Part shown: positions 15,258 to 58,359 of the stretch, piece by piece | Layout of the letters: each line of letters starts with the position of its first letter | How positions within the stretch are numbered: position 1 is the first letter of the stretch | From: Congregibacter litoralis KT71 | GTDB lineage: Bacteria > Pseudomonadota > Gammaproteobacteria > Pseudomonadales > Halieaceae | Direction of reading: 5' to 3' | Assembly (NCBI RefSeq): GCF_000153125.2 | Contig: NZ_CM002299.1 | Span: forward strand, 3,050,928 to 3,114,927 | DNA length: 64,000 nt | The notes under the pieces: model-generated | What the model saw: the letters and a program-made list of their open reading frames with translations, nothing else | Told to the model about the DNA's origin: nothing | The model's database searches: none | Made by a program: the position numbers and the translations under genes

Positions 15258-15301
15258 GGTACCAGGCGATTCAGCGTTGTCGCAGTGAATTCCCCCTCCG
15301 C

Positions 15302-16126: not shown

Positions 16127-16131
16127 AACCC

Positions 16132-22678: not shown

Positions 22679-22759
22679 AGAATTCACTCCTCACCTAGCA
22701 ATAGCGCAACACCGACCAGATTGATCAGCTCAATCAAACCCCACAGACGGAAAGCCCAT

Positions 22760-24058: not shown

Positions 24059-24061
24059 CAG

Positions 24062-24460
24062 CTAATCCCAGTAATTTGCCTTTTCAGGAATAGTCCAGCG
24101 AACGCCACCGCGTGGGTCGAACACGTCGCCCTCATATCGAGGAATCAAGTGTATGTGAACGTGCGGGATGGTCTGCCCTGCTATAGCTCCATCATTGATA
24201 CCGATATTGTAGGCATCCGGCGCATACTGCCTATCGAGCCATCTTTTTGCGCTCTCTAAAAGCCCTAATAGGCTCTTGCGCTCCAGTTTAGTGAGCTCAA
24301 AGAATGACGATACATGCCTGTTAGATACAACCAATCCATGTCCCTGACTGACTGGATAAGCATCCAAGAGAAAGAAGCCCTGATCGTCTTGCAGAATTAG
24401 GCGATGCGGGCCATTGCTCAGCACATCACAGAAGGCGCAATTCGAAAACGATTCGCTCAT
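24062..24460 (-). CDS. HIT-family nucleotide hydrolase/transferase
   Basis: 132 residues with the histidine triad HVHIHL near residue 101 (QTIPHVHIHLIPR), a CAFC pair at the N-terminus and the family's NIGINDG strand. HIT enzymes hydrolyse nucleoside phosphoramidates or dinucleotides such as ApnA or AMP-lysine. The gene overlaps the stop of the helicase-nuclease gene by 4 nt (ATGA) and is followed after 3 nt by the DUF3883 gene. It is therefore embedded in the defence operon, which suggests handling of a nucleotide signal or by-product, for example from the ART or TIR proteins. That link is inference. Confidence 0.85.
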   Translation of the reverse strand: MSESFSNCAFCDVLSNGPHRLILQDDQGFFLLDAYPVSQGHGLVVSNRHVSSFFELTKLERKSLLGLLESAKRWLDRQYAPDAYNIGINDGAIAGQTIPHVHIHLIPRYEGDVFDPRGGVRWTIPEKANYWD

Positions 24461-28275: not shown

Positions 28276-28278
28276 ACT

Positions 28279-31150: not shown

Positions 31151-32975
31151 TTTCGAATGTTGGCACCACCAGCGCCCGATCTAGATATCTGTTGCCACAC
31201 TCACACGAGGTCTCCGCTGCAAATGTACAGGCGTGACAAGCTGCCAAGTGCAAGGTGCCGTCTTTGTCGGGACTATGTTCTGAGCATAGCGGGTCAGATG
31301 AGCAGATTTTTGCGCGATTGAAGGCTTGCGATAGCAAACGACCTAAGTTCTCGGGTTTACCCAGCTCTACGAGACCGCCCAAAGTACCATCTGAGTCGGG
31401 GGCGGCTGTGTAGATCAGCACGCCGGCCTGCGGACTATCTCCGCTAGTATCAGCGTATATTCGCTCGCGAATACTTGCCGCGTTGTACCCGCACTCAAGC
31501 GCTAACTCGCGAATCAATAGATGGGCGACGGTATGTAATAGCGCATAACGAATGCCGGGGTAACCATTCATCGGTTCTAGCTTGCGAGAGTTTCGCCAAG
31601 CTTTGTGGCCCTTGAACAGCTTTTCATTAAGAGCTACCACCTCGGCCTTCGTCTCCCAATCGGCAAGAGCCTTCTCATCAAACCGAATGAAGATACCCTC
31701 GCCATGCACCTGGCTCGCAGGTATCCAGCTAGGGCTGTCGTTACAGAGCGCGGCCATTGGAGGCTGCTCATCTGGGTCGTTGCTGGCCTCTGGCGCCTCT
31801 ACTCTCGTAAATCCAATTAGAGCATTAACCTCTCTTAGCCTTTTTAATAGCAAAACATCAGCTATTTGGTTCTTGAAAGCAGCCGGCACCTGAACGGCCT
31901 CACTGAGAAAGTGCGGCCAATCCTTCGGCGGATTTGGCTCACTGAACACCTGCCATTCAGGCGCCTTTAAATCATCCTGCGTGACACCCGCGGTCACTTC
32001 GCCCTTCTGGATTCCTTCGACTACCGCCCAAACTTCTTCGGGTGAGTACTGATCGATACCAGGCAAGATGGCATTCTTCACTAAGATTTTGATAATCGCT
32101 TTAACTTCGAGCACAGATTCTACGTCGACGAAGTTGTCCCACCCATCCTGAACGAGCTGCACAATAGGGTCTTTGGTGAGCGGGATCGCCAAAGCAGACA
32201 AGGTCATTGCAAACCAACTGTTGGTCGCACCAAGCAAAACAGCTCGCGGCTCCTCAGTACAATTGGCATCGTATCTATCAAGGTGCGGATGGCGTCCACG
32301 GCAGGCGGGCAAGCTCTCTTTGCCGGCCTTACCGAACGCCTGAGCTAAGTTGCGTTTAGCACCGCAGCTATCACATTTCACCCACAGGTTTTCGGTCTGA
32401 AGCGAAGCCCCCGCCTCGAAGAATCGCAATCCACCGGTACATCCTGAATTCTGACCACCGTGCACGTAGTAGCGCCAAGGAAAATCGTCTAAATGGCCAT
32501 TGCGGCACGCCAAAAGAAAACGGGCAGGAACCGCATCCGCGTCACGAGCAGGTTTATCACCGTCTGACCCACGACACGACTCATGCACAAACCTCGTATT
32601 CTCCGGCCGGTACCGACTCTCTTTGACTTTGAATAGCCCTGAATCGTACTCCGCCAACATTCCACATTTCACACAACGCAACCAGCGCGGAAATGGCCTT
32701 ACAGGCACACCCACTTTCGCTTCAGGCGACCAAGGATCAATTTTGTCTGCCTTAACATAAGGAGGCATTCGCATGCTCTCGACCTGTTGGCCAAGAATGC
32801 GCCTAACAGCAGCAAGCAGCCTTGCCTCGACGATCGGCGGGCATCGATCTTTATCCCAGCGATCGATACCCAGCGTCAGAACTGACAAACTAGGCATATC
32901 TACCAACGCACCGGGGCCGTAGGTCCATAAAAGCTGGCTAGGACGAACCTCCCCGACTGGGGTCACTTCGCTCAT
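31110..32975 (-). CDS. drmB: DISARM protein DrmB (DUF1998)
   Basis: 621 residues. The N-terminal third has paired cysteines (LRCVKCGMLAEYDSGLF and VKCDSCGAKRN) for zinc binding. The C-terminus is DUF1998: YALLHTVAHLLIRELALECG near residue 480, then C-rich CSSDPLCSEH and ACHACTFAAETSCECGN. DrmB forms a complex with DrmA that loads on DNA. Its start overlaps the drmA stop by 4 nt (ATGA). Length and motif order match the family. Confidence 0.9.
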   Translation of the reverse strand: MSEVTPVGEVRPSQLLWTYGPGALVDMPSLSVLTLGIDRWDKDRCPPIVEARLLAAVRRILGQQVESMRMPPYVKADKIDPWSPEAKVGVPVRPFPRWLRCVKCGMLAEYDSGLFKVKESRYRPENTRFVHESCRGSDGDKPARDADAVPARFLLACRNGHLDDFPWRYYVHGGQNSGCTGGLRFFEAGASLQTENLWVKCDSCGAKRNLAQAFGKAGKESLPACRGRHPHLDRYDANCTEEPRAVLLGATNSWFAMTLSALAIPLTKDPIVQLVQDGWDNFVDVESVLEVKAIIKILVKNAILPGIDQYSPEEVWAVVEGIQKGEVTAGVTQDDLKAPEWQVFSEPNPPKDWPHFLSEAVQVPAAFKNQIADVLLLKRLREVNALIGFTRVEAPEASNDPDEQPPMAALCNDSPSWIPASQVHGEGIFIRFDEKALADWETKAEVVALNEKLFKGHKAWRNSRKLEPMNGYPGIRYALLHTVAHLLIRELALECGYNAASIRERIYADTSGDSPQAGVLIYTAAPDSDGTLGGLVELGKPENLGRLLSQAFNRAKICSSDPLCSEHSPDKDGTLHLAACHACTFAAETSCECGNRYLDRALVVPTFENAAAAFFGGVAGG

Positions 32976-35900
32976 TCCTCACCCCCGCCATCTTTTTTGA
33001 CTTGCGCCTTCCACTCGGGTCCGGGATCCAGCTTTTTGAGATGCATCTGCAACTTAACGCCGGGCTCTACTTCTCGCATCGACATAGGCACGGTGAATCC
33101 GTCCCATTCCTTGATGCCAGGCGAACGAATGAGTGCCACCTTGGAGTCGACGTTAGCCCCTCTCTTCTCGTAAGCAACCGTTCTTCCGGGGACGCCATTC
33201 TCTTTCACCCAGTCATCAATACGCTGCTTTATAGCTCCTCGAGCGAGCGATTCAGCGTCAGCACTCTCCTCCACCATCAACACTCTGTCGGTAACAGTCT
33301 TGATTATGTTTGTCACCGCAGGCGCCGCAGTGGATTTCAAGGTAAAGGCACCATCATTGGGGCTTAGCTCATCATCACCCAAACGCATCAAACTCAGCAT
33401 GGCTCCGGTTAAGCCACGATCCATCGCACGGGGAGAGAATGGTGTAACTGACTGTGCTTCTACATGCATGTAGAACGTCGCATGGTAATGCTCGAAGCTC
33501 TCGTAATGAGATAGGTCTCTAGGCCTTGACCAGGTCAGTACTGTGCAAACAAGCCCTGGAAAACTACGCCCGACTCGGCTTGTCGCCTGTATATATTCGG
33601 CTGTTGTCTTGGGCTGCCCGTTAACAGCCATGATGCCAAGTCGATTAACGTCTACACCAACTGACAACATATTCGTCGCCAGCACGACATCTACCGCCCT
33701 GTCCTCTTTTTCTTGCCACTTCGTTACGTATTTACCGGCGGCGGCATCCCACTCGGCTTTAAACGGCACCTCTAATAGGTCCAGATACTTCGGTATATCT
33801 TGACTAGAAACTCGAGACGTAAGCTCCTTAATATTGTTGACGCTACGCTGTGCCAAACCGGGTCGATCGACTTTACTCATCTGGACTCGATAAGAACGGG
33901 TTTGAACGTCGTCTTCGGCCAGGCGCTTCATACCGCCTAATTCTCGGAGTGAATTGAAGTAGCCCACGCTAGTCATATATGGGTCGGCCACTTTGCCGAA
34001 TCGATCAAACAGCGCCTGAGAGGCCGTGAGAAGCGATGTGTACAAGCGAATGAGCACCGCTGGCCTGGCACTACCAGGCGAGCATATACCGAGATAACGT
34101 CGGCCATAGTGCTGCTCAATAGGCCGTTGCACCGAAAAGAAATTGTCTTCTACATCCAGGCCGCTAGGAGGAAAAACAGCCACCTTGCGCATAAACACGC
34201 CACTGACCTGCTCTTTCGCCTTTCGTACGGTCGCCGTGGATGCAATCACCTTTGGCCGAATCGCTTTTTCATCCAAATGCCAGGTAGCGAGCTCATCGAC
34301 AGCCGTCTCATAGAGTCCGATCATCGTGCCGAGCGGACCACTGATCAGGTGAAACTCATCTTGAATAATCAAATCAGGCGGTCGAATTGGCCTTATGGCC
34401 TGCGCTTGCGATTTCGGCATCGTAGCTGTCTTGGGATGATTACCGCTGCACGGTGCATCCGCCCATAAAAGACCATGGCGCTGACATTCCAATTCGGCCT
34501 TGCCAAACAACGTACGCGTCTCGCCGCGCCAAGCCATCATGGCGAACTTATCCACCGTCGCGATCATCATTGATGGAGGCCTGTGATAAATCTCTTCATC
34601 GACTACCAGCGCAGGCAAGCCCGGATGTGGATGGCCAGAAGATCTTCCTTTAGAAAACTCACAACGCGCTTTTTTATCGCCGCAGTAAATCGCGGTTTGT
34701 AGTTTGTGAGTATTGACCTCGATGTCTCTGCCCGGATCGATGTCGGTGCCGCACCAAGGACAACTCGTCAACTGTGCGGGCGAGGTGCCCCCAGCGCTGA
34801 AGGTGTTAGGGTCTCGAACATCACTGATAGCCTTATGACTCGCCTTGGTTGTACCGGGCGTAACCTTGTTACCCACCCAGAGACCAATCGTAAATGGATA
34901 CTCTCCTAGACTCTTATCGCCTTCAGCATTCCATTGCCGACGAAGGACCTCCATTGCACACATTAGTGCTGTCGCCCTTTGGAACTGTTGAAGAGTAAGC
35001 AATCGCAACGTGTAGCGCATGATTACGGAAAGGCCTCGGCTGGCATCGTAACCGCCCAAATTGCCCTGAAAGCGGCGAATAGCCATCGTAAATGCCGCCA
35101 CACCCAAATAGGCCTCGGTCTTACCACCACCGGTAGGAAACCAGAGCAGATCAGCGAAGGCTTCGGCGGGATCTGTTCTGTCGTTGTGCTTTGGGTCCGC
35201 CAGCGCGGGAAGGGAGAGCAGCAAAAAAGCCAACTGAAACGAACGCCAAGAATAATTCTTAGGGTCCTTGGCAACTTCGTCCACCGTAACGATCTTGTCG
35301 CCACGGCGTCGCTTGAGGGCATAGATACTCTGTATACGTTGCTTTGCCATTGCCTTATTGGCAAAACGAAAGGCTTTCAAAGCGTTTTCGTTGGAGGTGT
35401 CAGCTAGTACGGCGATACCTTCTTTCAGGCGGGCATTAATCTCGTCACAGCGATCCATCGCGATTTCGGCCGCTGCTTTGTGCTCCGCGAATTCCGAATC
35501 GATACGACCTGACTGCTCTTTAATCCAGGCCGTGTAGTCGTCTGCCATCATGTTCAATACAGCCACTAAATCTGACCGTTCCATTGCGGCAAGACGAAGC
35601 ATACTAAGATAGCCATCTCGGACTATCGTCTTCTGCACGGGCCGATCGTTATCCCCGCCCTTACCGCCAGGGACATCTGTTATTGGCACTTCGTACTCAG
35701 GCATCACGACCGTTCGAATTTCGGTGGCTAGCTCAAGGCTTTCAGTTGCCGCCGTCGCATGAACAGCAACACCATGGCCTACCGCAAACTCGACTTGCTT
35801 CCGATAGATCATTTCAAGCGATTTTCTTTCCTGCTCGCTATCATCGGTGCTCAGAACAGGTCGACGCCGAAAGATTGGCGCGTCACCTTCAATCGCACGA

Positions 35901-36973
35901 GTAATGATTTCCGGCTGGAAGATCCAAGCGGTATCTTTGTTGGTGTCAGGCTCAGCTTGAGTATTGACTAAAAAGAGGGTGATAAGTCGGTCGCCCTTTT
36001 CGTTCGGTTCTCTCACAGCACCCTGCACAACGACCGACGGATTTTCTTTATCAGGCGAAATTGGCGCAATAACACCCTCTTTGAGCGTTAGGGAGACGGA
36101 TCCACCACAGGGGACACGCTGCCATATCTTTACCTTTGCTCCCTGTTTCTCCTCGCCTGTCTCAGGGTCCTTGATGATCTTGTATTCGTCGTGGTCGTAG
36201 AAGCGCTCGTATCGACCCCAAAGCGCCTCAATCTCGATCTCATCGATATCACCCGCAACACAAAAAGTTAGTCCGAAACTTGAGGGAATGAGTGATTGAT
36301 TGTTGCCCGTGTCCACCTCCTCAGAGGTTTCGGCGTCAGGCACGGCGTTATTGGACGGAGAGTCTGGCTTCTGGGCTTGCGCCTTTACTACGAGATCATC
36401 AGGATCCTCATCATCCTCGCCAGAACCGTCTACTCCTAAACCATCACCCTTAGCCGCAGCATCAAGCGGCGCCAGTCGACCAACAAGGTAACGATCGCGC
36501 ACACTCATATCGCTTATCTGCTCCATTGGGCCATTCGCTGGCCCCAGGAGGTCGTCCATTACGGAGATTTGCAGAAGGTCGCGGACATACTCCACATCTT
36601 CGATCAGTGGAACCTCAGGCAAGGTCCTATTCGTCAGCCTAGGAATGGCCTCCGCGAACAAAGTCCACTCGAGTCGTGATATCTGACTAGTTGTGGGAAT
36701 ATTCAACCCAGAAGCGCTTAAAGACGCTGGCTCATCTGCGATTAGCTGCTTATCGAACAGAAGAGTCGTACGGTCCAACTTATTCCTAATTCGATAAACT
36801 CTACCTACAGAATAGAATTCCCCGCGTTCATTGGCACAGATGACCCAGTCACCGCTGCTGATTGAGCTGAACAATTCCTTATGGCCAGTTAAATCGATTC
36901 CGTATTCGACACCATCTTTCCGCTTTATGACAATGTATGCACTGGGATTAACATTGCTTACCAACACACTCAT
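32972..36973 (-). CDS. drmA: DISARM helicase DrmA
   Basis: 1333 residues. SF2 helicase core: LLWFPTGGGKTEAY near residue 616 (Walker A), DLIIQDEFHLISGPLG near residue 873 (DEFH box) and EYIQATSRVGRS near residue 1133. A zinc-type CPWCGTDIDPG insertion lies between. Residues about 185-225 are an acidic, low-complexity linker. DrmA with DrmB recognises invading unmethylated DNA, and unwinding may feed the other components. It starts 76 nt after the GHKL-TIR gene and overlaps drmB by 4 nt. The gene is intact. Confidence 0.92.
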   Translation of the reverse strand: MSVLVSNVNPSAYIVIKRKDGVEYGIDLTGHKELFSSISSGDWVICANERGEFYSVGRVYRIRNKLDRTTLLFDKQLIADEPASLSASGLNIPTTSQISRLEWTLFAEAIPRLTNRTLPEVPLIEDVEYVRDLLQISVMDDLLGPANGPMEQISDMSVRDRYLVGRLAPLDAAAKGDGLGVDGSGEDDEDPDDLVVKAQAQKPDSPSNNAVPDAETSEEVDTGNNQSLIPSSFGLTFCVAGDIDEIEIEALWGRYERFYDHDEYKIIKDPETGEEKQGAKVKIWQRVPCGGSVSLTLKEGVIAPISPDKENPSVVVQGAVREPNEKGDRLITLFLVNTQAEPDTNKDTAWIFQPEIITRAIEGDAPIFRRRPVLSTDDSEQERKSLEMIYRKQVEFAVGHGVAVHATAATESLELATEIRTVVMPEYEVPITDVPGGKGGDNDRPVQKTIVRDGYLSMLRLAAMERSDLVAVLNMMADDYTAWIKEQSGRIDSEFAEHKAAAEIAMDRCDEINARLKEGIAVLADTSNENALKAFRFANKAMAKQRIQSIYALKRRRGDKIVTVDEVAKDPKNYSWRSFQLAFLLLSLPALADPKHNDRTDPAEAFADLLWFPTGGGKTEAYLGVAAFTMAIRRFQGNLGGYDASRGLSVIMRYTLRLLTLQQFQRATALMCAMEVLRRQWNAEGDKSLGEYPFTIGLWVGNKVTPGTTKASHKAISDVRDPNTFSAGGTSPAQLTSCPWCGTDIDPGRDIEVNTHKLQTAIYCGDKKARCEFSKGRSSGHPHPGLPALVVDEEIYHRPPSMMIATVDKFAMMAWRGETRTLFGKAELECQRHGLLWADAPCSGNHPKTATMPKSQAQAIRPIRPPDLIIQDEFHLISGPLGTMIGLYETAVDELATWHLDEKAIRPKVIASTATVRKAKEQVSGVFMRKVAVFPPSGLDVEDNFFSVQRPIEQHYGRRYLGICSPGSARPAVLIRLYTSLLTASQALFDRFGKVADPYMTSVGYFNSLRELGGMKRLAEDDVQTRSYRVQMSKVDRPGLAQRSVNNIKELTSRVSSQDIPKYLDLLEVPFKAEWDAAAGKYVTKWQEKEDRAVDVVLATNMLSVGVDVNRLGIMAVNGQPKTTAEYIQATSRVGRSFPGLVCTVLTWSRPRDLSHYESFEHYHATFYMHVEAQSVTPFSPRAMDRGLTGAMLSLMRLGDDELSPNDGAFTLKSTAAPAVTNIIKTVTDRVLMVEESADAESLARGAIKQRIDDWVKENGVPGRTVAYEKRGANVDSKVALIRSPGIKEWDGFTVPMSMREVEPGVKLQMHLKKLDPGPEWKAQVKKDGGGEE

Positions 36974-37912
36974 TCTCTACCTCTGTCGGAAAATCCATTT
37001 CCAGCACCATGAAGCCCTTTTTTCAAAGCGACACACTTCTTATAAGCCATTAACTTTCGCGGACCGAAACGAGTGTCTGCAAATGCGCGTGGTTATCTGC
37101 CCTGCTAGCCTTGCCATAGCCGATTTCGCCACACACGGCCTCTATTTTCTCGCAAAGAATATCGGCATCAAGTGGCGTAACCCATAACTCTCCACGAGTT
37201 GGTTCTTCCCGGTTGGTAGTTTGCCAAACGGCATTGTTGTCAAGTGGGTGCTCGGGCCTGAAGGGATGAATGTTAAATATTTTGTGATCAACTTGAGTGA
37301 TCCAGGCTGCCCCAACCTCAGTAATTGCACCCCACGAACGCTTGGTATTTTCACTTGTGATAAAGATAACTAGAATTTTTTGAGTTGAAATACTATCTAC
37401 AAAAAAAGCTCGAAGATAATCGTACAAATGAAAACCATCCGGGACTCTGCTCCTTTGGTCATCACAATTAGTGTAAATGATGTCTTCGGCGGGTGCGCCA
37501 TTCATCAACAGCATCTGATAAATGATGTCGGCAAAGGGCTTGTCGGCACGTGTCTGACTAATAAGAATTTTCTTCTTTTGCGTATCTATTAGGCTTTTAA
37601 GTCCGAGATCTGGGCTGTTATCACTAATGGCTTTAGCAACTATATTCTCAATTGCTTCCCTTGATAGATTCTCACCAAGCTGCAGAACCTCTTGGGCAGC
37701 ACTCTCACTGGACTTCTGTCGAAATGCATCAACATTTCGCTTAAGCTCCTCCTCTCTTTCTTGCTGCTCGTCAATCTTTCGTTGCTCTACTTTGCGCTTC
37801 CTCAGATCGGTGAACTTGTCTCTCATCTTCAAAATATCATTCAGAAGACTGAGGTCGGTCGGAATTCGTGGAGTCCATCGGATCGTTTATCTTTACGATC
37901 TGGAGGACAACG

Positions 37913-38215
37913 ATGGAAAGAATCCCCAAGGCATCTTACACGCCGGAGTTCCGGGCTGAGGCCGTGAAGCTGGTTGAGTCGACCGGCATGTCGGTGGCGA
38001 AGGCGGCAGAGCGGCTGTCGATCCCCAAGAGCAGTCTCAGTAACTGGGTGCGTGCAGCCCGGGCAGGAAAGCTGAAGCAGGTGGGTGAGCATCAGCGCGC
38101 ACCCACAGAGCTTGAGATGGAGCTGGCCCGTGCCCGGCGTGAGCTCGCTGAGGTCAAGCAGGAGCGCGATCTGCTAAAAAAGTTTGCGGCGTACTTCGCG
38201 AAGGAATCCCGGTGA
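37913..38215 (+). CDS. IS3-family OrfA, type 1 copy 3
   Basis: Same protein as in copy 1, ATG after GGAGG, ending 4 nt into orfB. Confidence 0.88.
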   Translation: MERIPKASYTPEFRAEAVKLVESTGMSVAKAAERLSIPKSSLSNWVRAARAGKLKQVGEHQRAPTELEMELARARRELAEVKQERDLLKKFAAYFAKESR

Positions 38216-39087
38216 GGTACGCGCAGATTCACCGGCTACGGCACGAGCACTCTGTCGCCGCGATGTGCCGTCTGCTGGACGTATCCGAGAGCGGCTACTA
38301 CGCCTGGCGCAAGCGGCCGCCGTCACCACGGTCGAAGGCGAACGCGCGTTTGACGCTGGAGATCAAGGCGGCTCACGAGCGCACGCGCAGGACGTATGGT
38401 CCCGAGCGACTTCAGTCCGATCTTGCCGACAACGGTATTCGTGTCGGCGTACACCGCATCAAGCGTATTCGCCGCGAGCAGGGCCTTCGCTGCAAGCAGA
38501 AGCGGCGGTTCCGTGTGACCACGGACTCGAAGCACAGGCTGCCTGTGGCGCCGAACCGGCTTGCCAGACAGTTCTCCGTCGATGTGCCGAACAAGGTGTG
38601 GCTGACGGATCTCACCTACGTCGACACCGCCGAGGGCTGGCTGTACCTGGCAGGCATCAAAGACCTGTTCAACGGGGAGCTTGTCGGATACGCGATGTCG
38701 GAACGGATGACGGTTAACCTGACGGAGACGGCACTGCGCCGTGCGATCGATGTCAGGCAACCAGGTCCTGGGCTTCTTCATCATTCCGATCGCGGCAGTC
38801 AGTACTGTGCGAGGAGCTATCAGCAGCTGCTACGGCAGCACCAGATGCTGTCGTCCATGAGCCGCAAAGGAAACTGTTGGGACAACGCGCCGATGGAGAG
38901 CGTTTGGGGAATCCTGAAGTCGGAGCTCATTCACCATGAACGCTTTGAGACGCGTGCGCAGGCGAGAGCAGCGATCCGGGAGTATATTGAGATCTTCTAC
39001 AACCGGACTCGGAAACAAGCGCGCCTCGGTTACCTATCCCCGGTACAGTACGCTACGCAGCACCGCCACAGTCAGGTGGCATATTGA
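38212..39087 (+). CDS. IS3-family transposase OrfB, type 1 copy 3
   Basis: Same 291-residue DDE transposase as in the other copies. GTG start overlapping the orfA stop; -1 frameshift fusion likely. Confidence 0.9.
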   Translation: MRYAQIHRLRHEHSVAAMCRLLDVSESGYYAWRKRPPSPRSKANARLTLEIKAAHERTRRTYGPERLQSDLADNGIRVGVHRIKRIRREQGLRCKQKRRFRVTTDSKHRLPVAPNRLARQFSVDVPNKVWLTDLTYVDTAEGWLYLAGIKDLFNGELVGYAMSERMTVNLTETALRRAIDVRQPGPGLLHHSDRGSQYCARSYQQLLRQHQMLSSMSRKGNCWDNAPMESVWGILKSELIHHERFETRAQARAAIREYIEIFYNRTRKQARLGYLSPVQYATQHRHSQVAY

Positions 39088-40203
39088 GCCGGTGGACTCT
39101 ACGAAAACCGACCGACCCCAGACTTCTTACGAGCTCAAGCATTGCTACATAGCGTGGATCGTCAGACTTGTAGCCTTGGCGATTGCTAAGGGCCATATCA
39201 GGCAATTCAGATAATTCGAAAAGGTCGATATGCAGCTGACCAATAACATAGGCCTCACCCATTTTGTTCTGACCAACTGCTGGGAGAACATTAAACTCGC
39301 CCATCTTCTTGTTTGCATAAATCGAAATGAAGTTATCAGGAAAATCGGTAATCTCAGCTTTGCGGCCTCGCGTGGTTCTGTATGCTCCTATCCATCCCTC
39401 AATCGTCATATGGTATTCATGTTCATGGCCCTGTTGATCACGCATGATCAATGGAATAGATAGACTATCCGTCGCATCAACTAGATCCGACCTAGAGTCT
39501 GGATACAAATTTGGAACCAGATCACATAGAGGAGCATACTCATTACCTAATGTAATCAAGGCTCCCAGTTCCTGGATTATGTTTTGGTCAAAGTCTTCGA
39601 CCACTTCAACCTCATTGTCTCGAACAATGTGGATACGAAAATTCGCGTCAACGAGAGGAAATATCTTGAGAAGATTTCGCTTAATCGCGCTTAATGTCTT
39701 ATGTAGCCTGTACTGCGGGTTACGCATAACAATTGCAGAGCCATGATCTTCAATGTACTCAAACACTACTTCGTTATCATCAATGGCCCTAAGCATGCTA
39801 TCCGGGTCAGGATATCGCGTGAGAACAAACCCCGATTTTTCACCATCAGCGACAGTCAAAACATCGACGTTCTCAGAGACGGATAAAGCGGCTAGCTTTC
39901 CAACGCCTTTTCGGCCCATTTTTAGCCGTCGGCCCGATCGCGTTAATGAATCGTTATCATTTGTTCGCGAAACGCCAGCAACATTGAGATATTTTTCTAT
40001 GTCGCCGTTCTCGTACGACATTCCATGGCCGTCATCCTCTACTCGGATGTCGTCTCTATTTGAAATTATGTAGACATTGTTAGCATCTGCATCGTATGCA
40101 TTGGCTATCAATTCAGCCAAGACGTAGTAGACATTGGTATATAGGTTTGGCCCCAAGAGCTCCAATATTCTCGGGTCGACTTTGAGCTCAAATTCCTTTG
40201 TCA

Positions 40204-43200
40204 TTATTTATCTTTTCCGAATATGTCCATTTGAGGCCTTGGCTCCGCCACTTTGTCCAATTCGAGCTCGGTGTCAGTGGGGGCTCGATATTCTTTTCTA
40301 TCCATTGAAGCAGCATTAACTCCTATGCCACCATTTTCTGTTTGGTAGATCTGCTTGTTTAGATCCACTAATCGGCCCAGTATTATCGACCTCATATCAT
40401 CAGTAAGCGCCCATCGCCATGCGTCGTTTGATGAGCCACCAGGAAAAATTCGAAAGTCGTAACTAATACTTAAATCAGGCCATCCGTATGCAGCTGCAAC
40501 CTCTGTGTCCAGTAAAATAAATAGTTTGCGGATATCGTTGATGACAGGCTCGCTGTTGGTTGGATCATTCACTGAATTCATAACGTCAGTGAGACCACAA
40601 TCATTCTCTTCACTAAACTTCACGGCCAGATCATTGAATTGGACAGCAGTCTCTATACATAAGTCTGATGCAATTACTGCTGGAAATGGGAACTTTCCAA
40701 CTGACTCTGTAATTGACAAAGTCAAACGCCCCTCCAGCTTCCCGCCTGAAAACACCTGCAACCATGTTCTGAAAAAACCACTCAGGCATATCGCAAAAAG
40801 GTCTGTTCTAGAGCTTTCTATCAATAAAACTTTGTTGGTGTATATCCACTCTGTAGGTGCAAGCATACATATTGGATGTTTAGTGACTTTAGAAAACGCG
40901 ACAAACTCACTCCTTTGACGAAGTCTTTTCATCTGGTCAGCTCGATGGTTCCAAAACTGCCACCAACGCTCATAGAGCCCCTTGTAACTCTTGAGTGCTT
41001 CTGGGGTACGAGTAGGTTGAACCTCTTCAACTAGAAAACGGTAAGCTAGCGGCCACTTATTTTCTAACTCTTCTAGAGTCAGATCAGCTATATCCAATGC
41101 CCAGCGGTCATACTTTTGCAACGCATAACTGGTGATATCATCGCCAGTGATATAAGGCCTCAACAAGCTGTTTTTTTCATCCCTCAAACCATCAAACCAA
41201 GGGTTATCCGGTTTGATAACGAAGGCCAAGCCTTTACTGTTGTCCACACCCGCAAAGGCAAAAGGTGACTCAGCTAGCGCCTGGGGCTTCCACGCGTCCA
41301 GCTCTTCGGGCTCAAGTCTCGGACCTATCCGAGCACACTTACGACCATCAGCGTCGCAATCAGAAAGCCACTCCCCTTTGATGAAGCCAACGATCGCAAC
41401 TACTACAGCTGCTGTGCCAGGCCAGGGCATACTTCTTTTAGAAAAATAGATGTTCCCTTGCTTAACAACCTCGCCGAGCCCCACCCCGACAGCACTGCCC
41501 TCTGCAATATTGCTCGTCGCTAAAAGGCCATAACAACCATCGCTACCCAGAAGCGTCACGGCACGCCGATGGAAGACGACGCACAAATCGATTTTACCCG
41601 GAGAGGCTCCAAGCACCATTTGGCACAGCCATTGCGACTTTTGACCCAGTGAAGTCTTCCACAGCCGGTTTCCAAGAAATGGAGGGTTCCCAATCAACGC
41701 ATCGAAACCATTTTTATCCCTTAGAAAGACTTCTGGAAACTCTATGGGCCAATGAAACGGCCTCCTTCTTTCTTTTCCCGGCGGCAAATCCAAGGAGAGA
41801 TTGGAATTCGCTCGCTTAGTGATTTCACTAATTGCATCCTGATCACCATCAACGGCCTGGCCGGCTTCAACAGCTAGAGAGGAAATCGCATTTTCTAGGG
41901 CGGACTCATTTCCATTGCAAGAAAATACCTCGGCTACAAATGCATCCGCGATTTTCTCTGGCACTTCCAGTTTCTGACGTGCATCAGAATCCAAAAGAGC
42001 CATAGCTTCAACGTCATGTATGTCACGAATTGGCATATCTCGCAGAAGTGTTCGCAACTCCATTGCACTTCGAGCTGCTTTCTCAATGTTCTGACCAAAT
42101 AGTCGTTGCTGAGTTTTCTCACCTGGCGACATACCCAGATTGATCAGCTGGTCAAGCTTGTGTATACCTAGCAGGCTATCTCCACTGCGTAGGTTGTGAT
42201 CGAGAAAACCAAAAGGACGTGACTTTGCGAGCGTTACTAGCCAGATAGACAATTTAGCGAGTTCTACCGCTAGAGGATTAAGATCCACACCATAGAGACA
42301 ACGCTCCGCAATGAGACGCCGCGCTACCACCATTCGCTCTTCTGCATCTAGAGGTAGCAGCTCGCTTTCGTCCACGGTCTCCAAAACTTCCCCTTTTACG
42401 CTCACGACTTTACCCGCGGCCTCGGCTTGAGACCAAGCTTCGCAGAGACGTTCGCCCAGCCAGCGGCAAGCTTGTACTAGAAAAGCGCCCGAACCCATTG
42501 CCGGATCGCAGATCTTCAAATCAAGCAGCTCGGCGGCTGACTTAAGCATCCATTGCTCGCGTGGTTGCCCCTCGGTAGAACCCACGAAAGTAATCGGGGT
42601 CAATGTATCGTTAACAATAGATTCGGTAAGTGATTTCGGAGTGTAATGGCTGCCCGTCCCGCGGCGGTCAGTGCCGGCACCAACTATAAAGGCGCCTTTA
42701 GTATAGATGAGCGGATTATCCCAAGCGTCTTTCTTCAAGAAATGCGTGTAGGCCTTAACTCGATCACGAAGAGATACATCATTTGAACATGATAGTAGCA
42801 GTGCCTCAGAATCTGCTTCACTGATTGCCTTCGAGAGATCATTTTTGACCCGAGAGGGCGAACTTCCTGTCCGCTCGACCAACAGTTTTCTAACGGCGGC
42901 CTCGCCATCACTTTCTGCCGAAGCAAGTTCAGAGAGCAATACCCAAGGTTTCTTGGACTTTTGAGTTGCTTCAAGTTCGAGTGTCACGTCCTTTGCCCTG
43001 ATTACTGTCTTCTCAAGCAGGCCTTCGTATACGTAACCAATTTGTTCCACGTCGAGCGCACGATAGGACAGCGTTCTACCCTGATACAGCTGAATAGCGT
43101 CCAGAAAAAGCAGCACGGTACGATTATCAATCGGCAGTGGGCGTGCCTCCTGGCTCTTCCAGATCGAATCCTTCGACCTTCCCTCCAAAAATGGGAAACG

Positions 43201-44322
43201 ATCTGGATCGAAAAGCGACCCGCCAAGGGCAGGCATACGCAGCGATTTATGATCTATTCCACCATATACAGCTCTAAACAGCGCCAAGAGCCGCGACCAG
43301 GCATTCGTTCTGTAGGAAAGCACCTCCTCGCCATGCAAGCCCGCTTCCTTACGCAGCTTCATCCTCAAGGTCGATAAAGCGTAATTTTCTGTGTACGTCT
43401 CATCGTCTAGGAGCAGCAACCCTCGCTTTTCTGCACAGAGCAAAAATACCAGGCGCATCATGAATGTGAGCCCGGCCTCGTAAAGCTCAGGTGGCTCGAT
43501 ACACTCCAACAACTCGCCGCTGGAATCGTTGTTGATTCGATCCAATGATTGCACCAATACCTCGACAGCACGCTGAACTTGAGCCCCCAAAGTCTCGGTC
43601 ACTTCGTCCTGGTGCTTGATCGACTCATCAAGCAGACCAGTGAGTTTTACTGCATTGAGCCCAAAGCCATTGAACACGGTTCGGATGTTGAGCAACTCAT
43701 GAAAGGCGATTAGCGTAATCGGCTCCTGACTCCAAAGCCGCGCATACCAACTGGCGTAGCTGGTTATCCCACCTTCTGGAGCATCCACGAACATCCATTG
43801 TTCACCGTTGGTGACCAGACCAAGCCGAGCGCCTACTTTTCGACAGAGGTGGCTCATACGCTCAGCTGGGGAGGTGGACCAACCGTCACCTGCGAACACG
43901 TCGTTCAAATTGGTGTCAGCCGAATAGTGGCTCACCAACAGATAGGGGGCTTCCTTGTCTGATCCGTAGAGCACATAACTCGGCTTGATAGACAGCTGAT
44001 ATTCAGGCAGATCCAGTTGTATATCGGCGGGTACTTGGTCGGCTGCCTTTAGCTCTTCTCCCTCGTTGTCCTCATCCCACTCGAGCCCTTGCTTAAGCAC
44101 CCAGTCGATCCACTGCTGGTGGAGTTCGCTTTGTAACTCATCATCTGAATCAACCGACTCACGCCATTCTTCATAGGTTTGACGGAACTGCTTCTTCTTT
44201 GTCGAATCCAGCTTCTGTAGCCCGGCTGGAAAAGCATCCCTCAAGACAGGCTCGGCCAGAAACGGGCCAGAGACCTCAATGAGGGACAACCATTCGCCAT
44301 GTTGCGACATCACTTCATCCAT
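40204..44322 (-). CDS. drmMI: DISARM class 1 adenine methyltransferase DrmMI-like
   Basis: 1372 residues. Motif I LKICDPAMGSGAFLVQ near residue 609 and the catalytic motif DALIGNPPFLGN near residue 879 (NPPF) identify an N6-adenine methyltransferase of the Eco57I/type IIG kind. The N-terminal 550 residues and the C-terminal specificity-like part (PYITGDDITSYAL, then KFPFPAVIASD) surround it. DrmMI is thought to mark host DNA so that DISARM attacks only unmodified DNA. The start follows the drmD stop directly (TAAATG) and its own stop overlaps the next ATG. The gene is intact. Confidence 0.88.
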   Translation of the reverse strand: MDEVMSQHGEWLSLIEVSGPFLAEPVLRDAFPAGLQKLDSTKKKQFRQTYEEWRESVDSDDELQSELHQQWIDWVLKQGLEWDEDNEGEELKAADQVPADIQLDLPEYQLSIKPSYVLYGSDKEAPYLLVSHYSADTNLNDVFAGDGWSTSPAERMSHLCRKVGARLGLVTNGEQWMFVDAPEGGITSYASWYARLWSQEPITLIAFHELLNIRTVFNGFGLNAVKLTGLLDESIKHQDEVTETLGAQVQRAVEVLVQSLDRINNDSSGELLECIEPPELYEAGLTFMMRLVFLLCAEKRGLLLLDDETYTENYALSTLRMKLRKEAGLHGEEVLSYRTNAWSRLLALFRAVYGGIDHKSLRMPALGGSLFDPDRFPFLEGRSKDSIWKSQEARPLPIDNRTVLLFLDAIQLYQGRTLSYRALDVEQIGYVYEGLLEKTVIRAKDVTLELEATQKSKKPWVLLSELASAESDGEAAVRKLLVERTGSSPSRVKNDLSKAISEADSEALLLSCSNDVSLRDRVKAYTHFLKKDAWDNPLIYTKGAFIVGAGTDRRGTGSHYTPKSLTESIVNDTLTPITFVGSTEGQPREQWMLKSAAELLDLKICDPAMGSGAFLVQACRWLGERLCEAWSQAEAAGKVVSVKGEVLETVDESELLPLDAEERMVVARRLIAERCLYGVDLNPLAVELAKLSIWLVTLAKSRPFGFLDHNLRSGDSLLGIHKLDQLINLGMSPGEKTQQRLFGQNIEKAARSAMELRTLLRDMPIRDIHDVEAMALLDSDARQKLEVPEKIADAFVAEVFSCNGNESALENAISSLAVEAGQAVDGDQDAISEITKRANSNLSLDLPPGKERRRPFHWPIEFPEVFLRDKNGFDALIGNPPFLGNRLWKTSLGQKSQWLCQMVLGASPGKIDLCVVFHRRAVTLLGSDGCYGLLATSNIAEGSAVGVGLGEVVKQGNIYFSKRSMPWPGTAAVVVAIVGFIKGEWLSDCDADGRKCARIGPRLEPEELDAWKPQALAESPFAFAGVDNSKGLAFVIKPDNPWFDGLRDEKNSLLRPYITGDDITSYALQKYDRWALDIADLTLEELENKWPLAYRFLVEEVQPTRTPEALKSYKGLYERWWQFWNHRADQMKRLRQRSEFVAFSKVTKHPICMLAPTEWIYTNKVLLIESSRTDLFAICLSGFFRTWLQVFSGGKLEGRLTLSITESVGKFPFPAVIASDLCIETAVQFNDLAVKFSEENDCGLTDVMNSVNDPTNSEPVINDIRKLFILLDTEVAAAYGWPDLSISYDFRIFPGGSSNDAWRWALTDDMRSIILGRLVDLNKQIYQTENGGIGVNAASMDRKEYRAPTDTELELDKVAEPRPQMDIFGKDK

Positions 44323-45469
44323 TTAACTTTCCCCTACCATCGACTGTGGCACGAGAAAGACGACCGCCACTGGAAATGTTCGGGCCACGTAGTCACCGTA
44401 ACGATATTCGATAGCTTGTATCTCTTGCTCCCTTTCTTCCGGTATGCGCGACAACCTAGCTTTTAATGCATCAAGGTCGCGCCGAACCTGGGTGCGCTCA
44501 TCCTCCGTAAAAAGCGATAACTGCTCTGGATCCTCAGCACTCTTTAACTCCGCTTTAATCGACGCCTCCAACTCATCTAACACGGTCGATATATCTCTGA
44601 TCTCAGTGTCTTTTCTCCTCTGCAGCGTGCCCTCGAGGTCCTTAAGTCGCTCTTTGGACCGGGCATCAATGGTCTTTTGAACCGAGTCGAGATTGCGATC
44701 GAATCGAAGTTTCAGTGCATCGCACAAAGAGTCGTTTGCGTCTGCCGGCTTAGCAGTGGCAAGCAGGTCATCTAGCTTCTTGACGCCCGTCTCGCGGCTA
44801 TAGGTTTTGTCCTTTAGATAACCGCCGGAGTAAGTGATTTCCTCATGCAAGCGATGATGGTTACCGCCTGTAACAACCAGACGGGATACGATGACAGCCG
44901 CGACTCCTTCGATTCGGTCATCAGGCAGTGATCTCAGGGTGACCCGATGCATCCTTTTCACATCGGATAGCGCCCAGACTTCTGCACGTAAAAGCCGCAA
45001 ACACATCTGCACCAGACGATGATTGAGATGCACCAATACGACGTCGTCCCGGCCTTTTGCTACTTCATGATCAAAGGTAATGGGCCTGATGACGTGAGTG
45101 TAGGGATGACGCAAGCCCTTGGTACAAGCTGCCCAGTTCCCGGTGAGTTCTGGCATCTTGAAGACGCTACCGTCCGGCGCATCAGCTAATGCTGCCGGCT
45201 TGAGCGCTGGTTTTTCGGCAATGGAGAGCCCAGTTTGTACTGCAGCGAGTATATGTTCTGGTGTTAGATGAAAGTCTTGTCGCGTCTGCGCCAATTGCTC
45301 ATGTAGTTTGGCAATCTTTTCATTGAGCTGACGCTCGGCCTTGACGAACTTTTTGGCCTTTTGGGTTCTCGCCTCCGCCTCACGAGTATTGAGTTCCTTT
45401 TGTCTGCCTTCTATCAATCCTGACATTTGGGGTGCGATCACTGGATTTACATGAATCGCCACCAGTTCT

Positions 45470-46342
45470 CTAGACACTTTCCAGCTGTTTTTCGTGATGC
45501 TGTTCGTAGTCTACAGGTGACAGCAGGCTGTTCGAGCCATGCCGGCGTCTGACGTTGTAGAACATCTCGATATAGTCAAAGATATCGGCCCGGGCATCCT
45601 GCCGGGTCGGATATATCTTGCGCTTCACGCGCTCGCGTTTCAGTAGCTGGAAGAAGCTTTCAGCGACTGCGTTGTCATGGCAGTTGCCGCGTCTGCTCAT
45701 ACTGCCCTCAAGGCCGTTTGCGCGTAGAAACGCGCTCCAGTCATAGCTTGTGTATTGACTGCCCTGGTCCGAATGAACAAGTACCTTGCTCACCGGCTTG
45801 CGACGCCACACCGACATCAACAAGGCATCTAGAACCAGATCGCTCGTGATCCGTGATTGCATCGACCAGCCAATCACCCGGCGCGAGAATAAGTCGATGA
45901 CCACGGCCAGGTACAACCAGCCTTCGTGGGTCCGAATATGGGTGATGTCGGTCGCCCATCGCTCGTTCGGCGCAGCCGGATTAAACTGTCTCTGCAGTAC
46001 GTTAGGCGTCACATCATGCGCTTTGCCAACCTTATGCCGTGGCTTGCGATATCCAACCTGCGCCCTGATTCCAGCGTCTTTCATGAGACGGTGGACACGG
46101 TTGGGGCCGCAACACTCGCCTATTTCATGCAAATCACGATGGATCTTCCGATAGCCATACACAGCACCGGACTCGAGCCAGAACTGCTTGATCAGGCCAG
46201 AGAGCCGCTTGTCCTCACAACCGCGAGCCGATAGCGGCTGTCGACGCCACGCATAGAAACCGCTGGGGTGAACGTTAAGCAAAGAACACAGATGCCGCAC
46301 CGGCAACTGGTGGCGATGGGATTGAATAAAAGCGTACCTCAC
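45470..46342 (-). CDS. IS3-family transposase OrfB, type 2 copy B
   Basis: 290-residue DDE transposase, differing from copy A only in the last residues as far as can be seen. GTG start overlapping orfA. Confidence 0.9.
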   Translation of the reverse strand: MRYAFIQSHRHQLPVRHLCSLLNVHPSGFYAWRRQPLSARGCEDKRLSGLIKQFWLESGAVYGYRKIHRDLHEIGECCGPNRVHRLMKDAGIRAQVGYRKPRHKVGKAHDVTPNVLQRQFNPAAPNERWATDITHIRTHEGWLYLAVVIDLFSRRVIGWSMQSRITSDLVLDALLMSVWRRKPVSKVLVHSDQGSQYTSYDWSAFLRANGLEGSMSRRGNCHDNAVAESFFQLLKRERVKRKIYPTRQDARADIFDYIEMFYNVRRRHGSNSLLSPVDYEQHHEKQLESV

Positions 46343-46617
46343 TCGGATTGGCTCGCGAAGTACGCCGCGGCTTTTTTTAGAATGTCACGCTCCTCCGTGA
46401 CACGCTTAAGCTCTTTTTGTAGCCGACGAATCTCGGCCTGATCATCAGCCTCCACTCGATGTTGCTCAGCAGCCGGCCCGTACTTCTTCACCCAGGCATA
46501 CAGACTGTGCGTCGTCACGCCCAGCCGACTGGCCACGTCCGCCACGCTGTAGCCGCGATCCGTGATCTGGCGAACGGCTTCTCTCTTGAATTCTTCGGGG
46601 TAACGCTTGTTGCTCAT
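46339..46617 (-). CDS. IS3-family OrfA, type 2 copy B
   Basis: Same as the OrfA of copy A, from the ATG at 46617. Confidence 0.86.
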   Translation of the reverse strand: MSNKRYPEEFKREAVRQITDRGYSVADVASRLGVTTHSLYAWVKKYGPAAEQHRVEADDQAEIRRLQKELKRVTEERDILKKAAAYFASQSE

Positions 46618-48743
46618 AAACACCTCTCTGATAGCCATTTTGTATGGCTGAAAGGTGTCTAGCAAACTGGTGGCGATTCAACACTACCCATATCTTCACG
46701 CATTGATTCCAGCTTTCTAAGGGCGCGAATGATGTCCTCTTTATGCCCCCCTACTGCTTTACCATCGGAGTCACCCGCATCTACCGGGTGCCAGATCAGT
46801 ACCTCACTTTCCTTTTGTCCATGGCGGTCGATACGGCCATTACGCTGTTCCATAACATTAGGGTTGTAAGGAATCTCCAAATGCATGAGGCAATTACAGT
46901 AGTTCTGCAGATCAATACCTTCTGATGCCGCATCTGTGGCCAATAGGATTCTTACGTCTGCATCCTTTGGGTTTGTTTGGAATGCGGCCTTTACGTCTTC
47001 ACGCTCCTCTTGGTCCATACCTCCATGAATGATGGCCAATCGATCACCACCATAGCCCGCTTCAGTGAGGATTTTTTGTAACCATTGCTGTGTTGTTCGG
47101 TATTCCGTGAACAATATGACGCGACGATGATTCCAGTCGCTATCCGTCTTGAGGTTCGCCTCAATCCAAGTGCATATCGCATCAGCCTTGGAGTCGCTTT
47201 GATGCTGTGCGGACTGGGCCCAATCTCTTAATTGGCTAATCAGTCGCTTTTGATCGCCCGTCAGGGGCGCGCTGCGCTTGGTGGCTTCCTCTACGGCCTC
47301 TTCCTGCGCCGCCTCGTAATCCTCGTCCCTAGCGTAGTCCTCTTCGGCCTTAAGCAGCGCCTTTCTGAGGATCCGCTCCTCAATAACCGTCGCCTTGGCA
47401 GGCTTACCCCCTTGGTTGACCGTATTCACATGCTTTTCGAGAGTAGAAGCGAAAGCCGCCGGAGACGAAAACAACCGTTTCTTCATAAGACTGTTTACAA
47501 AGTGGGTGCCGATATATTTTCTGTCTTGATCTGCCGTCTCTTCTCTACTTTGGCAGTAATCATCAAGTAGCTGATGGACTCGCCGCTCTTCGTTAGAATA
47601 ATTGACCTCAAGTGCCTGAAGCTTTCGCTCTGGATACAGAGGATTACCCTTGGCATCGACCAGGTCAGTCTTCAAGCGTCGAACCATAGCCTGCTGCAGC
47701 TGTTTTTCGTCGGGGAGTATGTTGCGCGCAAAGCGTTGATCGTCTAACAACTCTAAAAGCGACGTAAATGATTCTGTATAACCGTTGTGAGGGGTCGCTG
47801 TTAGAAACAGCTTGTGTTGAAAGTGCGGCGCTATCTCTCGTATCAATCGCGTGCGCTGACTTTCTAAGACATAGTTCGCAGAGCCGGATGGTGCGATGTT
47901 GTGCGCCTCGTCCACCACCAAAATATCGAATTTTCGAGGGTAACGCTTGGCTCCAGATAAGGTGTCTCGCATCAATCGCAGTGCTTCACCCGATTTGAGC
48001 CAGTCTTGAGAGGTGATCAGACGAGGGAATGACGTCCAGGGGTTGGCATGAATACCAAGATCGCGCCTCATTTGACGGATATAGTCGGTATTGACGATCT
48101 TGAAATCCAAACCGAACTTCTCCTGCATCTCATCCTGCCACTTCTGTTGCAGAGACGCTGGGCAAATAACAAGGACGGAGCGCGCTCGATGTCGGAGCAG
48201 CAATTCCTGGATGACCAGACCCGCTTCGATGGTCTTGCCCAGCCCTACGTCATCTGCGATCAGTAGGTTCGCCCGAGCCATGTTGATGGCCCGAACTAAG
48301 GGGTCGAGCTGAAAGTCTTCTATCGATACGCCACTGCGAAAGGGCGCCTGGAGGAACCCTCTGTCTGCGTTAGTTGCTGCGCCCCAGCGCACGGCGTCCA
48401 AGAAAGCATCTAGCTTTTCGGCATAGTCGAAACCGGTGATTTCGGGGAGGCCCGCTTTCTCAATGATATGGGCGCCGGGCTCAATCTCCCAAACGACCTG
48501 CAGTTCCTCGCCTAACCCATCCTCATCAATTGAGGACAGCGTGACTAAGTGTTGAGTGGCGCGACCAGCGACGCTCGACTCGGAAGCCACAATATCTGCA
48601 ACAACCCATTGGCGTCGTCTCACTTCAACGAGTTGACCTGGTTCTGGGACCGCAATGATTCGACTTGCTTCAACTGCTTGCTGTTGTTGCTCCAACTCTA
48701 ATGAACTCCTTTCATGAGCCTGAGGTAGTCCGCATGTGGGCTC

Positions 48744-50367: not shown

Positions 50368-50392
50368 TTGTGGGTGCAGTGTGGGTGCAGGA
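50368..50392 (+). repeat. Left copy of a 25-bp terminal repeat (two GTGGGTGCAG units)
   Basis: Two tandem TGTGGGTGCAG units, identical to 60342-60366 at the other end of island B and in the same orientation. Position near both att sites suggests arm-type integrase binding sites. Confidence 0.6.
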
Positions 50393-50422
50393 GCAGCACA
50401 CGAGCAATCAAGGTATACGAAC

Positions 50423-58208: not shown

Positions 58209-58359
58209 GAGGGGCGATTATGGAGCCGCACTTAGTCCAAATATTGGTCACCTTACTAATTTACCATGTGTTAGTGCTTAATTTGGCGGCGGTTTAGTTC
58301 GTATCACCACCTTAATCAGGGCAGGTTGGGGTCGGTCGGTTTTCGTAGAGTCCACCGGC

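Follow-up and report, generated by a model that had tools for sequence, protein, structure and literature searches.

The window, a 64,000-nt stretch of the Congregibacter litoralis KT71 genome (NZ_CM002299.1, positions 3,050,928–3,114,927, forward strand), includes an operon of DISARM, a name coined after 2008. All genes of the operon are on the minus strand. At its head is a gene for a C5 cytosine methyltransferase (48744..49799) that matches PF00145 (189 bits) and the PADLOC models MTase_II (290 bits, the best match) and also DrmMII (267 bits). It is followed by the 5' part (46659..48695; PADLOC DrmD, 1380 bits) and the 3' part (44323..45477; DrmD, 557 bits) of drmD, by drmMI (40204..44322; DrmMI, 1644 bits), by an interrupted gene for a protein with GHKL ATPase and TIR domains, and by drmA (32972..36973; DrmA, 1550 bits), drmB (31110..32975; DrmB, 270 bits) and drmC (29981..31150; DrmC, 691 bits). 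The complete DISARM class 1 gene set is therefore present by PADLOC matches, with drmD split, and the drm genes are in the class 1 order. The operon differs from class 1 in the methyltransferase gene at its head and in the GHKL-TIR gene between drmMI and drmA.

The element that splits drmD is of the IS3 type (45452..46680, minus strand), with the repeat ACA and 13 copies at 98–100% identity. Neither this element nor the methyltransferase gene was mentioned in an earlier reading of the window made from its letters (the sequence-only reading).

The interrupted GHKL-TIR gene

The 5' part of the GHKL-TIR gene (39121..40204, minus strand) encodes the GHKL ATPase and the domain that follows it (PF13589, NF050001), and is contained in an ORF of 383 aa (39053–40204) with its 3' end inside an insertion sequence. 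The 3' part (37050..37849, minus strand), which encodes the TIR domain (PADLOC spbK, SpbK chain, alignment A4), includes an ORF of 260 aa (37050–37832). Between the two lies a 1,271-bp IS3-type element (37850..39120, plus strand), recognised by its inverted ends and genome copies, with transposase ORFs at 37868–38215 and 38212–39087 (plus strand). Seven copies are found in the genome, including this one, and all are 100% identical and define the ends as TG...CA. The target repeat GAC flanks the element on the left (37847..37849) and on the right (39121..39123). When the element is removed and a single GAC is kept, segments of 1084 and 797 nt give 1881 nt, or 627 codons including the stop, a length obtained by arithmetic from the coordinates, without joining of the sequence letters.

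The two ORFs are thus confirmed as halves of one gene broken by an IS3-type element, as the sequence-only reading had proposed for a protein of 626 residues. Uninterrupted relatives are common, as 111 of the 120 matches listed (of 2920) are 618–645 aa long, and GHKL and TIR are encoded by a single ORF in 57/57 TIR-bearing relatives. The possibility of two separate genes was rejected on the latter count; it is also opposed by the 132 own-size matches to the TIR part alone, which may include contig-end fragments, versus 2920 for the N-terminal half.

The drmMI stop and the GHKL-TIR start overlap by 1 nt (position 40204), and 76 nt separate the end of the GHKL-TIR gene at 37050 from the start of drmA, both as noted earlier. 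Given that the GHKL-TIR gene and drmD are both interrupted, the DISARM and GHKL-TIR genes of this genome are probably inactive, and neither arm is expected to work.

Domains of the GHKL-TIR protein

The N-terminal half matches HATPase_c_3 (Pfam PF13589, 63 bits) and retains E31, N35, D58 and RKGVGK, which bears out the HSP90/MORC-like ATPase seen in the sequence-only reading. This half also matches NF050001, the model for BbrUII/HgiDII-family restriction enzymes, with 203.7 bits over profile positions 1–348 of 659. A relative, P0002, gives 207.7 bits, and profile positions 393–659 are unmatched, with a TIR domain found there instead. Both scores fall below the curated cut-off of 550 bits. The PADLOC REase_II models match the window N-terminal half and 42/42 members of alignment A3, and in the window protein and P0002 these matches are confined to the N-terminal part. 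About 390 N-terminal residues thus match restriction enzymes of the BbrUII/HgiDII family, and an SpbK-like TIR domain appears to replace the remainder (profile positions 393–659). An adjoining C5 methyltransferase gene is a further common feature, seen likewise beside full-length members of that family (e.g. L089).

The C-terminal half matches the PADLOC spbK model (E=1.6e-17) and the SpbK chain (2.6e-4), and no Pfam family at 1e-3. Chance likeness to TIR was rejected, as the spbK model fits 42/42 members of A3. HMM alignment to SpbK (9phb) showed that the catalytic Glu and the TIR assembly residues are present. In the window, the codon for the catalytic Glu is at 37317–37319 and that for Trp of the EVGAAW stretch at 37302–37304. 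E538, G540 and W543 of P0002 align with E192, G194 and W197 of SpbK, assuming that the chain and native numberings are offset by 24, as deduced from the lengths 290 and 266. These columns are invariant in 42 sequences, which are a chosen set, and the residues are also present in the window protein. In the Bacillus subtilis TIR NADase SpbK, E192Q is reported to abolish NAD+ loss and defence, and the G194R and W197A variants to lack both defence and, with YonE, NADase activity (PMC12847820, PMC11984713). The TIR domain with the conserved Trp and Glu recognised in the sequence-only reading is thereby upheld, and the TIR half is predicted to be, probably, an NAD-destroying domain. SpbK differs in having no GHKL ATPase and in an N-terminal region that binds YonE, the portal of the phage (PMC12847820, PMC11984713).

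The GHKL-TIR fusion itself is already known, having been described in 2008 as paraMORC4 by Iyer, Abhiman and Aravind (PMC2292703), who found an N-terminal GHKL and a C-terminal TIR domain in restriction-modification neighbourhoods with DNA methylases and helicases, and suggested a nuclease or an allosteric/ligand-binding role. Neither NAD+ nor DISARM is named in the parts of that text covered. The window gene, though split, likewise encodes GHKL with intact motifs and a C-terminal TIR in one protein, in a neighbourhood of restriction-modification type (C5 methyltransferase and DISARM genes). The Hx[ST]xD motif given for the TIR loop of paraMORC4 is not found, the window protein having Q-T-R-A-D; by eye, the motif fits 7/32 aligned rows, and its last Asp is invariant. 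The window protein is called paraMORC4-like here, as set against the 2008 description and not its member sequences.

Other GHKL fusions have different effectors. Ymh-HEPN-paraMORC, proposed as analogous to PrrC and RloC, combines a paraMORC ATPase with an abortive-type executor beside restriction-modification genes, but in place of TIR this executor has a HEPN fold and is predicted to be an RNase (PMC3710099). VcSduA (GHKL-Shedu) also unites a GHKL ATPase and an effector in one defence protein; however, the effector is a PD-(D/E)xK nuclease, and no methyltransferase partner appears in the part of the text covered (PMC12137116). No publication joining DISARM with a TIR domain and GHKL was found in a search that did not cover the original 2018 DISARM paper, nor one linking TIR, HATPase, anti-phage and NAD+.

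Relatives and their association with DISARM

A search with GHKL-TIR found 217 relatives, and the counts of TIR-bearing loci and of those lacking TIR rest on the 80 that were read. GHKL and TIR are carried by 57, and 23 have no TIR match; the L058 contig ends inside the gene, leaving 22 counted as lacking TIR. Besides the window, 14/57 TIR-bearing loci from four phyla lie inside DISARM operons, in the slot between drmMI and drmA, so that the placement seen here recurs elsewhere. Intact examples of the two settings are the DISARM-borne gene of Alcanivorax limicola (L012) and a stand-alone pair with a methyltransferase in Gallionella sp. (L014). The contig of one of these (L056) starts inside the gene with drmMI outside the view, hence drmMI was seen in 13/14. 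The drmMI and GHKL-TIR genes overlap by 4 nt in 7/13. DISARM linkage was found for 14/57 TIR-bearing loci versus 0/22 lacking TIR (p=0.008, Fisher; the test ignores relatedness, and as the loci are related p is too small).

DISARM was not found in the fetched stretch at the other 43/57 TIR-bearing loci, and the DISARM label switches at least five times on the GHKL tree. GHKL-TIR is also absent from 16/16 DISARM loci that were retrieved by searching with DrmA or DrmMI (L120–L130, L132–L135 and L142, with L128 and L135 rearranged). L117 and L143 were set aside, since their contigs contain only part of the operon, and nine of the 65 plasmid records with DrmA were examined. Varied other genes occupy the drmMI-drmA slot in DISARM loci without GHKL-TIR; for L129 and L130 the slot was checked for GHKL and TIR only. 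This slot is a place to seek new effectors. Because none of the 16 carries it, GHKL-TIR looks like an optional cargo of DISARM and not a core member. The sequence-only reading was therefore right about one gene, a GHKL-TIR fusion and a DISARM slot that recurs, but its view of an integral member of the operon does not hold as regular membership, and the fusion had been in print since 2008.

The same counts bear on two alternatives. GHKL-TIR could be a true DISARM effector that is triggered by DrmAB or DrmMI and not by a methyl mark of its own, and that forms a second abortive layer, close to what the sequence-only reading envisaged. The 14 DISARM loci, the 4-nt overlaps and the GHKL distances, which track those of DrmA (r 0.69 across ten DISARM loci), are consistent with this, but the 43 TIR-bearing loci without DISARM, mostly with a methyltransferase, the 16 DISARM loci without GHKL-TIR and the label changes on the tree argue against it, and we consider it unlikely. 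Alternatively, GHKL-TIR may be a defence-island passenger, unlinked to the drm genes and hitch-hiking only, as its interruption here, its absence from the 16 loci and the varied contents of the slot might suggest; its occupation of the same slot with tight overlaps in DISARM loci of four phyla makes this very improbable.

The C5 methyltransferase and a possible methylation-gated mechanism

A C5 methyltransferase gene is found in the fetched stretch of 41/43 non-DISARM TIR-bearing loci; it lies within 100 nt in 36/43, and in 30/43 it is both that close and upstream in the same orientation. Versions with TIR and versions without it are partnered by methyltransferases that can be closely similar (up to 92%). 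The enzymes of L037 (TIR) and L085 (no TIR) are 92% identical and those of L014 (TIR) and L081 (no TIR) 82%, at GHKL-region identities of 29% and 27%, respectively. The methyltransferases of the DISARM loci L042 and L011 are each 78% identical to that of L081. L085 scores only 298 bits against BbrUII (cut-off 550), and the case for a swap with a named restriction enzyme thus depends on L081. M.HgiDII is reported to be a 5mC enzyme for GTCGAC (PMC5867850). In the comparison of methyltransferases, the second tree was made without L058 and L087. The target-recognition region was cut between motifs VIII and IX, which we take to be its bounds.

Inside DISARM, the methyltransferase as proof of a partnership with GHKL-TIR only is weakened by three loci headed by a C5 methyltransferase gene and lacking GHKL-TIR, namely L127 (no cargo), L187 (reverse transcriptase cargo) and L120 (another GHKL protein). 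Among the ten DISARM loci, methyltransferase distances correlate with those of DrmA at r 0.84 versus r 0.51 with those of GHKL. L053 has no methyltransferase gene in the operon, the one found being on another contig, and in L009 the gene comes after drmC and has the opposite orientation. Contig ends remove the operon head from L019, L043 and L056, and it is outside the view in L133, L135 and L142; L133 and L135 were excluded from the test counting methyltransferase absence.

Taken together, domains and neighbourhoods point to GHKL-TIR as a methylation-gated NADase that in class 1 DISARM occupies a cargo slot of variable content, a reading that, as a whole, we judge to have about an even chance of being correct. 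The C5 cytosine methyltransferase, as the putative partner, would mark host DNA. The GHKL ATPase clamp would close on DNA without the host 5mC mark and gather the TIR domains, and these would hydrolyse NAD+, such that growth of the infected cell would halt, either in place of DNA cutting or in addition to it. With GHKL-TIR in the slot, restriction and an abortive response could come from one operon. The sequence-only reading suggested that an abortive, NAD-depleting branch might act when DNA restriction fails; a methylation-gated trigger of its own would suit the neighbourhoods better.

It is tentatively proposed, with a confidence just short of even, that this is a restriction-modification system with cell suicide as the restriction step, in which the DNA-sensing GHKL part of a type II restriction enzyme drives a TIR NADase, one methyltransferase lineage serves both cutting and killing, and the module was acquired more than once by class 1 DISARM, where the drmMI-drmA slot would hold exchangeable effectors.

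That the TIR domain instead makes a signal molecule, as in Thoeris, read by another protein such as the product of a HIT-family gene (ThsC2 model), is highly unlikely, as the HIT gene further down on the same strand (24062–24460) is five genes from the TIR half, although genes annotated as TIR and HIT precede drmD in a Rhodococcus plasmid.

If the methylation-gated NADase is correct, it would join type II restriction, TIR-based abortive infection and DISARM, which are mostly treated apart. Prokaryotic MORC-like GHKL ATPases would gain a testable role, namely to detect DNA without the mark and activate an executor, and a single methyl mark would be able to license cleavage of DNA in one case and loss of NAD+ in another.

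Matches to GHKL-TIR among 369 genomes of the class are the window genome and two distant ones at 29%. The genomes of 58 relatives gave one further match, G387, which is not counted apart from L016. Plasmid records gave 17 matches, one of them covering 80% or more of the query, in a 2.9-Mb Listeria record, and one full-length relative (L137) was found among viral contigs.

The interrupted GHKL-TIR gene and its operon in KT71

The genome of Congregibacter litoralis KT71 is a single contig of 4.35 Mb. The DISARM operon, on the minus strand of the window, has the gene order C5 methyltransferase, drmD, drmMI, GHKL-TIR gene (37050-40204), drmA, drmB and drmC, and two IS3-type elements have inserted into it. 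The first (37850-39120, target repeat GAC) splits the GHKL-TIR gene and has seven copies in the genome, all reported as 100% identical. The second (45452-46680, target repeat ACA), with 13 genome copies of 98-100% identity, splits drmD, and hence the insertions disrupt the core of DISARM in addition to the GHKL-TIR gene. As the copies are near-identical, transposition of both elements was probably recent. By arithmetic, the two parts of the GHKL-TIR gene with one copy of GAC come to 627 codons including the stop, in agreement with the sequence-only reading that the two ORFs are halves of one gene.

Elsewhere in the window, these two elements are also represented at about 5667-6938, 12624-13857, 16989-18260 and 58327-59598. 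A phage-type integrase gene (50381-51772, plus strand) adjoins the head of the operon, tRNA-Arg is located at 60431-60507, and two genes next to each other at 9486-12648 (plus strand) match MMR_HSR1/dynamin-type GTPase. The operon strand continues immediately beyond drmC with a gene run (21887-29958, minus strand) for a NERD-UvrD helicase, a RecD2-like protein (PDC-S68 model, 1539 bits), a HIT-family protein (ThsC2 model), a NO VEIN protein (PDC-S36 model) and a 266-aa ORF without a match; this run is perhaps an additional defence cluster.

The N half encodes a GHKL ATPase with the expected motifs in place, and the spbK model of PADLOC gives a match to the C half. A profile built from 42 relatives matched the solved chain of SpbK, a TIR NADase of Bacillus subtilis (PMC12847820, PMC11984713), with E = 4.9e-17, and its N-terminal end matched HSP90-type chains at 6e-6. 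The window C half alone matched SpbK at 2.6e-4, consistent with the C-terminal TIR domain predicted earlier. According to the SpbK papers, E192Q abolishes both NAD+ loss and defence, while the G194R and W197A forms are without NADase activity in the presence of the SpbK trigger and without defence. The positions aligned to E192, G194 and W197 do not vary among the 42 sequences, and the window has the same residues there; the GHKL-TIR protein would, judging from the alignment, have equivalents of all three.

The GHKL+TIR architecture is that of paraMORC4, described in 2008 from restriction-modification neighbourhoods, where it was proposed to act as a nuclease or to bind a ligand (PMC2292703). 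In 2013, paraMORC fused to HEPN domains beside restriction-modification genes was described as a PrrC-like device (PMC3710099), and VcSduA joins GHKL to a nuclease (PMC12137116); the executors in the latter two cases are HEPN and a nuclease, respectively, rather than TIR. Both the GHKL+TIR fusion and paraMORC-executor fusions beside restriction-modification genes are therefore known in kind. A literature search, which did not reach most subscription papers (e.g. the 2018 DISARM paper), found no paper tying a GHKL-TIR protein to DISARM or NAD+.

Relatives and their genetic neighbourhoods

Relatives of full length are frequent: among the 120 listed (from 2920 matches), 111 are 618-645 aa long with at least 72% identity to the query region. 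The closest protein other than the window's own, among the matches listed, is from Haliea sp. (86%), and a match was found in one same-family genome (G387) among 58 relatives. In a contig scan covering the best 80 of 217 relatives, GHKL and TIR were found in one ORF in 57, providing the uninterrupted homologues sought in the sequence-only reading. The other 23 gave no TIR match; one (L058) ends at the contig end inside the gene, leaving 22 no-TIR loci. In L137, a contig from the IMG/VR viral collection, a GHKL-TIR gene (67% over residues 1-621) is followed downstream by one for a C5 methyltransferase.

Fourteen of the 57 TIR loci lie within DISARM operons, in Pseudomonadota, Verrucomicrobiota, Planctomycetota and Campylobacterota, whereas DrmA, DrmB and DrmC were not found within reach of any of the 22 no-TIR loci. 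drmA is downstream in all 14, and drmMI was seen upstream in 13, with a 4-nt overlap in 7; the proposed placement between these genes thus recurs elsewhere. At the 43 non-DISARM TIR loci, a C5 methyltransferase is present in the fetched stretch in 41 and within 100 nt in 36; in 30 it lies upstream, on the same strand and no more than 100 nt away. Among DISARM loci, a methyltransferase heads the operon in 10 of 12 with GHKL-TIR and a readable head (window and L010 included) versus 3 of 13 without GHKL-TIR (p=0.005, in a test that ignores relatedness).

The drmMI-drmA slot as a cargo site

The slot has varied contents. L125 has a DRT UG5-nitrilase-type reverse transcriptase (11439-14621, minus strand of that locus), L120 a GHKL protein with Methyltransf_35, and L053 a KAP/PifA-like ATPase followed by GHKL-TIR. 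One or two extra genes separate GHKL-TIR from drmA in L009, L016 and L043. They encode an AspBHI-type methyl-directed enzyme in L009 and, in L016 (Haliea sp. EAC94; 11872-16730), a second DrmD-type helicase (PDLC02623, 2030 bits) with a protein (565-571 aa in L016 and L043) for which, in L016, there is no Pfam, PADLOC or NCBIfam match at the thresholds used; L043 (6399-11223) has the same pair, as judged by similar sequence starts. No gene occupies the slot in L121, L124, L126, L127 and L132, and GHKL-TIR is absent from all 16 DISARM loci that searches with DrmA or DrmMI turned up. Given these contents and this absence, GHKL-TIR is an optional, recurrent cargo of DISARM, and its earlier description as an integral member is too strong for DISARM at large. 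In L132 (Rhodococcus ruber plasmid), a class 1 DISARM without GHKL-TIR, annotated TIR and HIT genes are directly upstream of drmD. In L121 (Deinococcus sp. AJ005 plasmid), drmC is immediately followed, beyond the operon itself, by genes for a C5 methyltransferase, a Vsr-type endonuclease and a GHKL protein.

The 15 DISARM members are scattered among stand-alone ones in the GHKL tree, the DISARM label needing 9 changes, of which well-supported branches force at least 5. In the methyltransferase tree, DISARM members fall into two groups, one proteobacterial and one of Verrucomicrobiota, and both groups include or adjoin stand-alone partners; L009 and L121 are placed elsewhere. This scatter in both trees indicates that the association was gained more than once or repeatedly undone. 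Spread of methyltransferase and GHKL-TIR as a simple package is disfavoured, because at ten DISARM loci methyltransferase distances track those of DrmA (r 0.84) better than those of GHKL (r 0.51; GHKL-DrmA, r 0.69), and because the DISARM operons L127, L187 and L120 (the last with the other GHKL protein) have the methyltransferase without GHKL-TIR. At 41 stand-alone loci the methyltransferase-GHKL correlation is r 0.43.

Relation to BbrUII/HgiDII restriction enzymes

The NCBIfam label for the N-terminal region is BbrUII/HgiDII family restriction enzyme. The two GHKL-TIR sequences scored share this region but do not reach the family cut-off of 550: the window N half scores 204 bits and the relative P0002 208 bits, over about 390 of 659 positions. 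When the model was tried on ten other GHKL proteins without TIR, seven (L065, L071, L072, L073, L080, L081 and the phage-borne L089) exceeded the cut-off along the family length. L085 and L088 fell below it, and the L120 slot protein gave no match.

The methyltransferases of L037 (TIR) and L085 (no TIR) are 92% identical along their length, with 96% identity across the target-recognition region, and the GHKL regions share 29%; for L014 and L081 the values are 82% for the methyltransferases and 27% for the GHKL regions. The methyltransferases of the DISARM loci L042 and L011 are each 78%, and that of the window 67%, identical to that of L081. As methyltransferases cross the TIR/no-TIR border while GHKL regions differ, the executor may have been exchanged with the methyl mark remaining shared. 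The site methylated by M.HgiDII is GTCGAC (PMC5867850). In L089 (Escherichia phage PhiR44_1), the BbrUII-family protein (751 bits), annotated as ParaMORC3, is encoded beside a Dcm-like methyltransferase.
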